In this document: one piece after another, positions 50,501 to 59,500 of the stretch
How the letters are laid out: every line of letters starts with the position of its first letter
Numbering within the stretch: position 1 is the first letter of the stretch
Assembly (NCBI RefSeq): GCF_964204645.1
Contig: NC_134036.1
Span: forward strand, 3,520,001 to 3,584,000
DNA length: 64,000 nucleotides
Source: Tubulanus polymorphus
Taxonomy: Eukaryota; Nemertea; Palaeonemertea; Tubulaniformes; Tubulanidae
Direction: 5' to 3'
Notes under the pieces: model-generated
Databases searched by the model: none
What the model saw: only the letters and a program-made list of their open reading frames with translations
Told to the model about the DNA's origin: nothing
Made by a program: the position numbers and the translations under genes

Positions 50501-53500
50501 TTATCTACCCACACCGTCATAACGAATAAAGAATTCAATGAAATTCTTATGGGTGACATTCGCTTTGAACTATAACCCGTAACAAGCGCTACCTTTTTTA
50601 ATATAACTTTTGCCTATGCAGCATAATGCTAAGTGAAGAAACCATTGTCTCTACCAGGGACTTCACATTCATTTAACTGTGTTCCTACGAGCTCTCAACA
50701 TGCTCTACGACTTTATTTCATGTTTGGTCAGTAGCTTTTAGGCGTACATGCTACACGTTAGGATTTCATCATGTTTGTTCAACTTTACTCTTCGCGAGCG
50801 CAATGTCTTTGAATTTGTACATATTTGGATATATCCATGATAAATTGTACGTGTTAGATGTTAGTAAGAATTGTTAGTGCGGTACAAGAGGAGAATAGAC
50901 GTCATATAAATGGCAAGTGTTAGTAACATTGATTAGTTATGTTAGGTCGATTTGTGGCTCATCACACAAACCAGCATTCCTAATAAAGGTGTCATCATGT
51001 TCTATTGCACGGATTCAATCACTAATCCTAGCTTTTTCAAACTTAACTTTGGGATTACCGATAAATGAGCCCCAGTGCTGCCAACTTCTTCTTCCGGAAA
51101 GTGCTATCGGAGACTTTTTTGAAATATGAAATACGATGTACAAATCTATAAATTTTCTAAGGTTAGTCCTCGGCATCGACTTATATTGTGTACATCAAAT
51201 TTAGGTTTTTTTTCAGGACGAAAAAAAAATGTAACAAACTTTAAATCTGAATCCGTTGGCATCTCTGGTGTCCCATAGATAGATGAAGTTCAAGTACCTG
51301 AGGCCAAAGCTCTCTACGAAAGACATTGATTTACCACTACGACCAGCAAATGAACAATTAGAAAGCGTTAATCGTTAATAAGCTAATTAGTATATGAAGC
51401 AGGACACGATACGAAACTAAAGTTAGTACGAAGCTACGAAGAAAGGATCTCCATACGCACACACACACGAACACATGACGTGGAAACTTACTTCCGTAGA
51501 CGACGACGACTCGAGCGGTTTCGTGCCCTTCCTTAACGTAGCGAATGAACCGTGATCATCGACTCGATTCACGAGCTCTTTTACCGATTTCGCGCGAACT
51601 TTCGCGATATCCACGGGATCGATATCGTCCGGATTATCAACAACGTCCTCCGCCTCCGCCGCCTGACTAGAACGTTCCTGTTCGGCGGCGGCGGCGACCC
51701 CTGCTGCCGCGGCAGTCGAGGTAATATTGTCCATACGGCGACGATACTGATGCGGTGATGAGGTATGGTCCGGTTTAGCCACACTGTTGTCATGATAACT
51801 GCCCCCGCTACTGCCGCCCGCGAACGGTCGTCGACGGTTTGAGGGCGATTCGTTCAGGCTGCGAGCGGGGACTTGCGAAATAGTTTGTTTGCCAGCTGCA
51901 CTGGCCGCCGGTCGAGGCGAAACTTTCGGCGAGATTTTCGCCGTAGATTTTTTGGGCGAGTCGAGTGCTGATCGTTTCGACGATTTAGGCGATTGGGCAA
52001 CGATCTCGACGGAACGGGCTTCGTAGTTGGGAGGCGCCCTCGGCTTGCTCTATTCGTCGGAATTAATAATTAGAAAGAAAAAAAAACGGAGACATGAGAA
52101 GCGGCGGCTTTTTAAAACTGCTGATCAATCGTATATTAGAAAAAAACAACGAATTAAAAACATGAAGAAAAATTATATTAAACGAGAACTAATTCAAAAG
52201 CAACGGATAATTATTTGAGGAATGAATTAATAAAAGCGATGTAAGTTGAACTAATAAAACTGTATATACTGGATCCATTTAAAATGATTAATTCAATCTT
52301 ACGAATCCGATTAGAAATACAGAAATTTCACAAACGGATGGAGTTACGAACAAATTAACGGCACGACATCAAATACGTGGGTAAAACTTGACACAAATAT
52401 CTATAACATTAATAGGATAGTGATGGCTAATGAAAGGGTGTGAGCTAATTGAGAATGAATCTGAAATTCTGGTGAAAAAAGTAGATAACGTGTTGGTTGA
52501 AATTGCTAAGATAACCGACTAACAAAGATTATTTATGCATGATAAATATAACAATCCATTTACTGTTTCCACGATTGTCGGGAATGGCAGGTTAAGTGTA
52601 TCTTATTCCTGTTGATCACAGCGCAGTGCACGTTTGGTCAACTAAATCGGGGGCTTATATGTACCTGAATGTCATCGGTCCAAAAACCCGTTTCAGAAGG
52701 AATGTGCACGAACGGGTGTGTGTAATGTCATGATATATTTGGTGCGACTTGATACATTGATTACTGTACGTGTGAAAATCGTATTAAATCTCTCAAAATA
52801 TTCCAAAATCGGCGGCGATTACTACAAAATCCAATTCGCTTACTCCTACTGTGGCATCAGAGGAATACGACTAAACTACCGGCAGGGCGGCAGCGGACCT
52901 CGTAGATCTGATTGGAGACGTCAACCACTACCACAAACGTATCCAAAAATAACGATGCCAATATAGTTTGAAAGATTTTAAGAGATCGCTTCTGTCGTGT
53001 GTTTCTTATTGATTTCAACTTAAAACCTACCAATAAAACTTGAATAGAAGTTTTTTGAATGTTTGAAGGTGATTGCTGCTAAAAACATAAAGGAAGCTTT
53101 GATTAGAATGTTCATAAATGTCGGACACTGGAAACCAGGTTGTGCATTAGATATCCACCTAAATGCATCTTAACTTTTCCCTAAGAATTCGCAATGAAGA
53201 TTCTCTTAGTCATCTTAGGTATTCATACTACATTGATGTTCATCTTGGGTGGCAAATATTTTGTCGTCACGAACCACTTCTCTTGACACATCGCATTGAA
53301 CAAAAAACTTTATACATGAAGTTACATCAACAAAAACATTGACGGAATGGGAGCAAACGTTTGTCCACAGCTACCGCTAAAGGCAGAGTACAGCCACTCA
53401 TTAAACAATGCACATTTACTGAATCTATATCGTTTGATCTCTCGATAAAACATAAATAAATGAAATATGATTATTATCATCATACAACAGTAATCCTGAA

Positions 53501-56500: not shown

Positions 56501-59500
56501 CCGTCGGTTGCTGCTGTTGTTGTTGGTGGCGGTAGTTGTGGTTATCGTCGTCGATGGTTTCAGACGGAGCGGTTGGCTCCTCGCGAACGGCCGGCACGCT
56601 ACGTCGACGGAATCGAGAATCCGACGACAGTTTCGGGGGTATTTTCGGAGACGACGCCGGGTGGTAGGATTTCCTACGATCGTAGATCGACTTCATTTTC
56701 GACGGGTCGACCTGGCTTCCGTCCTAATGCACGAAGAAATATTTTTTTGAAAAAGGTTCTTTGATTTCTATCTAATGATGACAATTATCCATTACGTTAC
56801 GTTATGATATACATATACAAATGATAGATCATAAATTCTATTTTGATGTTGACATAAGGGTTACAAGGAAGCCAGTAAAAGCTAGCAGGTTGTATAAGAA
56901 ATTGGGGTACCGGTGTCCGTGCACGGTGCATTGCGCAACGTCGTTACCAACATCTCGGAATCCCATGAATATTTAATTTTTATAAATTAGTTCCTGCTCT
57001 ATCGGCGGTCGACTGGGTGTTTGTTTCATAACTCGTTTTTGAACTTAATAATCGCATCTAGATCTGGATAGAAAAGCTTTGTCAACATTATCATCTAGTT
57101 TATATAGCTTGTCTCAGATCTCCCATATTTTACTAATAATGCGCGTGATTTATATGCGTACATAAGAAGACAAGGAATTTCCATGATAACAAAATGGCCT
57201 TTACACGTATTTTCATGTCTGCGAATGTTTTGTTTACCTTAAGTGATATAAGGATAGGATCTCTGTTATGACCGTGTATCCATTCCTGAGCGGTTAACGA
57301 TGGGGTTTTTCCGGAGGTTGGGGGAAATATGTCTTCCTGAAATGTCTCCGACTGAAAAAATAAAAGAACATCGATGATAATTAACGAGATGAACGTCAAG
57401 TTTCATCCAACCACTGAGAATATATGTTTCAGGATATAACGAGGTTTGTTAAATTGACGCCTAAACTAATATTGTACCTTTCGAGGGACTTTCATTGAAA
57501 TGATGTCGATCTGCGTTTTGGAACTGTGAAGTTTGTAAAATCTCATGATCTCGCATTTGGCCACGTCGACTCCACGTTTTGGCATCGAACCTGCGGATAA
57601 CGAATGCAAACATTTGTTTTTAAGGATAAAGCTATTGCCAATGACGTGAATTCTTCGGTTACATTATGTATGATAACGTACCAAGACCTCGCTGAGGATT
57701 GCCGGACATGAACGCGTCCAAGAAGTGACAATACGGCTTTTCGGGAACGATTTCGTAATAACGGATGTTACCATCGCCCTAAATTACGAAAGAAATGTCA
57801 TATTTCTTTCACGTGGTTTGCAATCATATCTTATTCTGATGTTCTTCTTAAAAATCCCAGGGCCCAGTAGCATAGCCTTAAGTTCAATACATGTAGTAGT
57901 CTTGAATGCTATAACTCGTCTTAAAACTGTCAGATTGACTATAGAAATAAGACGGTCTGAAACTGGTCTCAAATCTAAAACATGACTGTGCAGTTGGCCC
58001 AGGAATCATTATTGCTGCACAGCTTCTTCATGCCATCACCAAAGTTTGCAAGAAGTATGCGTCCGCGATGGCATGGATCGGTTCTGTGGCAGGGTGTCGC
58101 TAATAATGGGGGTTAGAGTGCGGAAGGAAGCTATGTACCTTTCCTGCAAGAAATACAACTCCGGTGTCATGGTCGTAGTACGGTAACAATACTCCACTTG
58201 ATGCGTCTATCGATTCGACTCTCAATGGACTCGACAAGTTATTCTGAAATACGAACGTGGCAAATATCGATGTCTGCATGGGAATCTAACCCAGCTACTT
58301 GGGATAGATATAAACGAACAACGAGAACATGAAAATCTGTGAAAAACTGTCTCTAAGAACCCTCCATTCGGTCGGGTGAAGAACATCCGCGAAAATATCC
58401 TCACTTAGTTACGATTTATAAGTTTTTATCTTCCAAAATTGATGAATATCAGTACTATATGGTTAATACTCAAAGTAGATATAAGATATTGAAGGATGCC
58501 ATTTTAATACCGTTTAATCAGCTTAAGAGTGAGAAAGAAGTTCTTGTTATTGCTAGACCTCCCGAAGGAGTATTTACACCTTGGTTTTGTTCTGAGAGAT
58601 GTATACAGTATACTCACAATATCCCAAATACCAAATTGTCGATCACTCATTTTTGAAAATCCGGTCGTGAACAATCTGCCCGTATCTCCTAAGAAAACAA
58701 CTTTCGACGCCTTTGTACCGACGTGACCCTGACCTTCCTGAAAAAACGAAATCGCGAAACGCGGTAGCTATATAGGTCATTCGTTTTCAACGGTCCACCC
58801 AACGTATGGATGCCAGAATTTATGAAATCTTCGATATTTCCAAGCATTGGACTTCACAGAATGTTATATTTCGAAGAGGCCCTCAAAGATCTCAGCAGCA
58901 CTTACCGCGACGATGTTACCAGAGCGTGGGTCGATCACTCTAATGCGTTTATCTTTACAGGTGGTCGCCAGCAGACTCCCGTCCCGATTCCACGACATCG
59001 AATAGATCGTGTCGTTGTGGCACGATATTATATTGATCGGTTCAGCTGTCTCTAAATTCCATAAAATCACCTACAATTCGGTGAGAGAAATGATAAATAC
59101 ACAATCCTTGGAGAAGTAGGGAACTTCAATAGTTGATCGAAAAAGTTCATCACTACTGGACGTGATTCAGTTTTCATAACTTGTAGGGATTGGCGAAATA
59201 ACTCCGCTTGGGAAGGCTAAACTAATAGGCCGAATTCTTGATTGTTGGTGACTTAGCTGATGCGTTCTAGAGGTCTAGGGCACGGAATTCCTGAAGTGTA
59301 TTTTGCACGCAGGAGCGCAGACTCTGTAGTGGTTATAGAGTAAGCTGAAGTTTTATAGGGTGAAATTCTTGAGATGATAACAAACTTACGTTGAAATCAA
59401 ATCCGGCACTAATGAGTATATGCTCCGCTGTGGGATGCCATTCTATATAACCTATCCTTCTCTGGTGGCCGTGTAAATCGACGATCCACTCAGTTAGATT

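Follow-up and report, generated by a model that had tools for sequence, protein, structure and literature searches.

A 64,000-nt stretch of Tubulanus polymorphus DNA (NC_134036.1:3,520,001-3,584,000, hereafter the window, in whose positions all coordinates are given unless another contig is named) carries on its minus strand a coronin gene with five linker exons between the propeller and the coiled coil. The reading that we favour, with modest confidence, is that of an intact class-2 coronin of ordinary length (585-617 amino acids, aa), in which cassette exons would extend the tether between propeller and coil and exon 10 holds an array of docking-like motifs. Three points of this reading are inferred: use of the cassettes, binding of partners by the array, and an altered linking of filaments through the longer reach.

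The gene model comprises 15 coding exons (60333-47522, minus strand; Table 1) with GT-AG introns throughout, and its full splice gives a coding sequence of 3513 nt including the stop codon, or 1170 aa, in which residues 1-392 form the coronin domain, the next 729 the linker and the last 49 the coiled coil. GC content is 43-58% in the exons and 37% in the introns. An earlier note on this DNA had described a protein of 1170 residues with a linker of ~730 residues spread over four or five exons, and its five sets of exon coordinates and the fit of the phases, as well as both lengths, were reproduced here. Whether the protein exceeds twice the usual length of its family, as that note had it, turns on the yardstick chosen, the full form being 1.8-2.6 times the 450-650 aa given for short coronins (PMC3203266, in excerpt). 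The skip junction that it proposed from 57238 to 48908 needs amending, 48908 being the last base of exon 14 and 49003 its acceptor.

The linker is assembled from frame-neutral units, namely exons 10, 13 and 14 singly (phase 0-0) and exons 11 and 12 as a pair (432 nt), and 16 in-frame proteins of 441-1170 aa are therefore possible. Two of the shorter options, 9-11-12-15 with 585 aa and 9-11-12-14-15 with 617 aa, compare with the length of short coronins given above, as against 1170 aa for the full splice. The unit borders also echo one another: exon 10 starts with DGSQ and exon 11 with DGAQ, the 9|10 and 9|11 junctions both read ISLKDG, as in coronin-1A, and exons 12 and 14 both end with P-x-T-D-x-E (PKTDSE and PNTDQE) right before the coil, such that skipping exon 10 or exons 13-14 preserves the flanking motif. 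On a simple splice score, the acceptor of exon 13 is the weakest of 15 (-0.4, at the 60th percentile among the AGs of the gene). Taken together, the junction echoes, the frame-neutrality and the weak exon 13 acceptor favour optional exons without proving them. The earlier argument that matching phases make the long form spliceable stands as far as spliceability goes; production of the long form does not follow from the fit, each linker unit being equally skippable in frame. The best internal donors score 6.0 in exons 10 and 12 and 6.4 in exon 14, and a scan of introns 9-14 for additional cassettes (45-1200 nt, acceptor >= 7, donor >= 6, open and divisible by 3) returned a single place, in intron 12 (53031-53078; 45 or 48 nt).

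Exon 10 carries a degenerate array of the motif P-[EDQ]-[FY]-[LF]..[ST]P, with 14 [DEQ][FY] sites where 6.2 are expected, a number reached by one in 5000 shuffles. The pattern P[DEQ][FY] occurs 9 times (0.71 expected), P[DEQ][FY][LF] 6 times (0.06 expected) and [DEQ][FY].{1,8}[ST]P 9 times (0.79 expected), counts that none of 5000 shuffles attained in any of the three cases and that overstate the case somewhat because the patterns were picked after inspection of the sequence. No excess of these [FY] motifs was found in the propeller, in exons 11-12 or in exon 13.

To compare the sites at the codon level, 13 of the 14 were aligned, leaving out the one at residue 746. Across the four motif columns, pairwise agreement was 73% at codon position 1, 63% at position 2 and 35% at position 3, and the columns nine to twelve codons downstream of the motif gave 29, 34 and 32%; the high values at the first two positions arise because the sites were picked by protein. 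Codons for the same residue agreed about as often as random pairs or less (P 0.27 against 0.34, E 0.46 against 0.50, F 0.47 against 0.47, L 0.19 against 0.23), and in the small samples Q was level (2 pairs) and Y and D agreed fully (3 pairs each). Because same-residue codons agree no more than random pairs, the motif copies are not recent duplicates of DNA, and they look like old coding sequence in which the motifs were kept or gained as protein over a long time. The Gln/His tract of the same exon, a short tandem repeat at the DNA level, probably grew by slippage. The earlier note had supposed that so long a tether might carry docking sites, and the exon 10 array gives that idea a concrete candidate, at which partners may dock.

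Sequence features place the protein in the coronin family, through both its coronin domain and its C-terminal trimer motif. Pfam recovers DUF1899 (E 3.6e-31), WD40 (7.3e-19) and WD40_4 (2.3e-18), and the closest matches of the coronin domain in PDB, from a query that included 23 residues of exon 10, are coronin-1B, -1A, -1C and -6 (E <= 1.4e-147). In the tail, the trimerisation motif RIHQLE is intact at aa 1146 and fits the form R-[ILVM]-x-x-[ILV]-E given by the family paper (PMC3203266, in excerpt). The Trimer_CC model scores E 0.059 on the coil, which falls below the model's cut-off, and a PDB sequence search with the coil returned a single row at E 1.3. Two further stretches match the motif, RISFLE in exon 12 (aa 856) and RIGYIE inside the propeller (aa 132); RISFLE is likely a chance occurrence, because the pattern is so short and the RIGYIE match falls within the propeller. 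In a tree that included provisional sequences of human CORO2A and CORO2B, the coronin domain groups with both (ultrafast bootstrap 98), and its identity to these provisional sequences is 61% for CORO2A and 58% for CORO2B, as against 54-55% to four class-1 chains. A tree of seven sequences without CORO2 did not clearly place its class. We call the gene a class-2 coronin with reservation, since the name rests on these provisional CORO2 sequences.

Invertebrate class-2 coronins may commonly have long, fast-evolving linkers, the present one being simply unfamiliar, an alternative that we regard as possible though rather unlikely. It agrees with the report that unique regions differ in length and composition and can be aligned only among close relatives (PMC3203266, in excerpt); the 450-650 aa of short coronins from the same source, and the linker of only 80 residues in a second short coronin of this genome, argue against it. 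We are doubtful, too, that the long form is constitutive, with all linker exons always included and an 1170-aa coronin-2 in the lineage as the outcome. Such a protein would be consistent with junctions that are all in phase, with splice scores of exons 10, 11, 12 and 14 that fall inside the propeller-exon range or exceed it, and with the alignment of the start of exon 10 to the stretch of coronin-1B that follows the coronin domain. Less readily accommodated are the frame-neutrality of every linker unit, the weak acceptor of exon 13, the skips that keep the flanking motif and an internal acceptor in exon 10 at 56288, which scores 7.0 against 7.1 for the exon's own, lies in frame 435 nt further in and makes a shorter exon 10 conceivable.

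Several observations weigh against the reading of a short coronin with optional cassettes and a docking array, beyond the choice of motif patterns after the fact. The exon 10 motif is not known to have a partner. The junction echoes are short and were spotted only afterwards, and exon 10 has splice scores that match those of the propeller exons, as would suit constitutive inclusion. In alignment with coronin-1B, the junction of exons 9 and 10 extends further and fits better than that of exons 9 and 11, running into exon 10; in bits, continuation into exon 10 or exon 11 gives 94.4 and 95.4 with coronin-1A, 89.1 and 84.4 with 1B, 86.1 and 85.6 with 1C, and 88.9 and 90.4 with coronin-6, so that exon 10 scores higher with two solved coronins (1B and 1C), exon 11 with the other two (1A and 6), and there is no clear winner. 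The linker exons resemble the provisional human CORO2 tails weakly, the best of 12 comparisons (exon 14 with CORO2A) being equalled in 15 of 1000 shuffles, and the likeness of exon 12 or 14 to the end of a vertebrate linker was dropped as proof of a short form, being too weak. Codon preference, too, does not favour frame 0: exon 13 scores 0.097 in that frame against 0.129 and 0.131 in its two other frames, and in exons 11-12 frame 1 equals or exceeds frame 0 and an antisense frame reaches 0.156. Because the true frame is not favoured, this score was not used as evidence of translation, although it separates exons 10-13 from intron windows, exon 14 less clearly. Finally, several of the splice variants reported in C. 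elegans are doubted by the family paper, which calls them low in abundance (PMC3203266, in excerpt).

Whether exons 10 and 13 could be open by chance was judged from 100 windows simulated by a first-order Markov process and from 2000 sequences per exon of its own composition. The longest open frame of the simulated windows had a mean of 163 codons and a maximum of 220. With 382 codons, the open frame of exon 10 is the second longest of the window and exceeds the longest open reading frame (ORF) in 100 of 100 simulated windows, and no sequence of its own composition (0/2000) was open in frame, which makes a chance origin of this ORF very unlikely. The exon 13 frame of 208 codons lies within the simulated maximum, and 9 of 2000 sequences of its composition were open. 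By these simulations exon 10 stands on length alone, and exon 13 less firmly. In a six-frame search of their own genome (267.8 Mb in 77 contigs, the scope of all our same-genome searches), exon 10, its array and exon 13 match only themselves, and a transposon origin of exon 10 was dropped, since it has a single place in the genome. We consider it highly unlikely that exons 10 and 13 are unused in the coronin mRNA, as chance open frames or relics: exon 13 would suit such a view, with a frame inside the chance range (208 against 220), a weak acceptor and codon usage that does not favour its frame, whereas exon 10 lies far beyond chance, holds an in-frame array in which synonymous change is saturated, and scores well at its splice sites. 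Least credible is a separate product of exons 10-15 from an internal promoter, in addition or instead (linker and coil without propeller, for example a dominant-negative or scaffold isoform), for which an in-frame ATG near the start of exon 10 (aa 402, MKSIYDRR) would serve but against which the 9|10 junction reads ISLKDG as in coronin-1A.

The linker had been described as rich in Pro, Ser, Gln and basic residues, which is borne out for Pro, Ser and the basic residues and, in exons 10-12 (11-13%), for Gln, but not for Gln in exon 13 (3%), an exon rich in Ser and Ala. Its predicted disorder agrees with a charge-hydropathy plot, where it falls on the disordered side, a loose test because the coiled coil does so too. 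The linker as a whole drew no Pfam match up to E 1, nor did the exon 13 helix or most of exons 11-12 with the limit raised to E 10; PDB searched by sequence gave none for exon 10 at E up to 1 and one row (E 0.81) for exons 11-14. Single-sequence folding models exon 10 with a mean pLDDT of 49.5 and a helix at exon residues 77-113, and exon 13 with a mean pLDDT of 61.1 and helices at exon residues 99-138 and 145-165, the latter more confident. The idea that the exon 13 helix and the LRKG stretch with it are WH2-like was dropped for want of a Pfam match. By a formula for an ideal unfolded chain, 729 residues would have an end-to-end distance of ~24 nm, compared with 6.5 nm for 80 residues; on this ideal-chain estimate, the long form may bridge filaments at larger distances, as the earlier note had proposed.

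Coronins oligomerise, binding F-actin through propeller and coil and Arp2/3 through unique region and coil (PMC10638096, in excerpt). In the mechanism that we propose, exons 1-9 would supply the F-actin-binding propeller, exons 10-14 a disordered unique region and exon 15 the trimerising coil. Splicing would make either an ordinary coronin-2 of 585 or 617 aa or, through inclusion of exon 10 (which adds 367 aa), of exon 13 (which adds 186 aa) or of the two together, longer forms of up to 1170 aa, in which each of the trimer's three propellers would be tethered by as many as 729 residues. With its proline-directed phospho-acceptor sites, the exon 10 array could then act as a multivalent docking platform, tunable by phosphorylation. 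A stronger version, which we offer as speculation and think unlikely as it stands, is that splicing switches a compact trimeric actin regulator to a very long-tethered multivalent scaffold, with the repeated P-[ED]-[FY]-L..SP motif of exon 10, tunable by phosphorylation, recruiting a partner along actin. Animal genes commonly have optional exons that are long and disordered. Should the long form be made, splicing could vary widely how far the actin-binding heads lie from the trimerising tail and would bring in a repeated docking-like motif, providing a natural test of the role of the coronins' poorly understood unique region; should the short form alone be made, the gene would be an ordinary coronin-2.

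Table 1. Exons and other features of the coronin gene, in window positions
Feature	Position	Strand	Basis or remark
Exon 1, first coding exon, DUF1899	60139..60333	-	DUF1899 E 3.6e-31, aa 4-68
Exon 2, propeller	59700..59816	-	gene model
Exon 3, propeller	59390..59539	-	gene model
Exon 4, propeller (WD40)	58906..59070	-	gene model
Exon 5, propeller	58618..58737	-	gene model
Exon 6, propeller	58139..58243	-	gene model
Exon 7, propeller	57682..57778	-	gene model
Exon 8, propeller end / C-terminal extension	57478..57590	-	gene model
Exon 9, end of coronin domain (..ISLK)	57238..57351	-	WD40_4 E 2.3e-18, aa 346-386, exons 8-9
Exon 10, predicted disordered linker exon of 367 aa, phase 0-0, 1101 nt	55623..56723	-	gene model; no Pfam or PDB sequence match
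Degenerate P-[EDQ]-[FY]-[LF]..[ST]P motif array in exon 10, 14 [DEQ][FY] sites	55650..56327	-	pattern counts
Gln/His tract in exon 10	55713..55760	-	short DNA tandem repeat
Exon 11, linker, starts DGAQ	54508..54773	-	gene model
Exon 12, linker, ends PKTDSE, contains RISFLE	54007..54172	-	frame-neutral as pair with exon 11
Exon 13, linker exon of 186 aa, phase 0-0, 558 nt	51492..52049	-	lowest-scoring acceptor among the 15 exons
Predicted helix in exon 13, ~aa 1048-1068	51555..51617	-	single-sequence model; most confident stretch of the exon 13 model
Exon 14, linker exon of 32 aa, phase 0-0, 96 nt, ends PNTDQE	48908..49003	-	gene model
Exon 15, C-terminal coiled coil and stop	47522..47671	-	trimerisation motif RIHQLE at 47582-47599

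Elsewhere in the window, the longest ORF is a 585-codon frame at 6831-8588 (+) that matches a Mutator-like transposase (PF20700, E 2.8e-61), and a 225-codon open frame at 11124-11801 (+) holds a linker histone H1/H5 domain (E 2.4e-21).

The second short coronin of the genome, on contig C2 (locus L022, 2093-6594; G000:C2, ~27482092-27486593), has a coronin domain of 388 residues and a linker of 80. It has three alternative last exons (4945-5076, 5335-5508 and 6415-6594 of the locus), which would give forms of 511, 525 or 527 aa, and each of these exons has an AG acceptor, a stop codon and a trimer motif (RIKYLE in the first, RIHSLE in the second, RVKFLE and RVAELE in the third). The first two are identical at 24 of their 35 core residues, the kind of likeness that tandem duplication of an exon would leave, and match Trimer_CC weakly (E 0.12 and 0.06), the third not at all; isoform-specific oligomerisation of this coronin is possible. 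Identities alone would make it class-1-like (51-55% to class 1, 46-48% to the provisional class-2 sequences), trees not placing it clearly. Three more pieces that resemble the coronin propeller, at 36-53% identity, lie at G000:C5:19379909-19384703 (-) and are perhaps a tandem coronin or another WD40 gene.

Among the matches listed from full-text literature, as judged by titles and the beginnings of abstracts, none reports a linker of this kind in a class-2 coronin. A pattern search of GTDB genomes picked up 17 stretches, none of them encoding a relative, and IMG/VR gave no match, both collections excluding animals by design.

Within its own genome, the window coronin shares domain order and trimer motif with the coronin of contig C2, in which the linker is 80 aa long and variety lies in three alternative last exons instead. 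Yeast Crn1 likewise has a functional unique region between propeller and coil, which binds microtubules and includes a CA domain for Arp2/3 (PMC3203266, in excerpt); unlike that region, the linker here has no Pfam match, in searches that did not include a dedicated one for a CA domain. A parallel for variation at this site comes from C. elegans coronin-1 (CeCoro1), for which splice variants are reported within the low-complexity stretch that precedes the coiled coil (PMC3203266, in excerpt), just where the candidate cassettes lie here. CeCoro1 is, in contrast, a class-1 protein with an optional exon 8, whereas the candidate cassettes here span 367 and 186 residues. Vertebrate CORO2A and CORO2B have the same propeller, extension and C-terminal coiled coil, with linkers of 84 and 39 aa in the provisional human sequences, compared with 729 aa here. 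The window coronin keeps the classical trimer motif that tetrapod class-2 coronins altered (PMC3203266, in excerpt), and CORO2B has been described as binding F-actin and as connecting ventral actin with sites of adhesion (PMC5698439, in excerpt).

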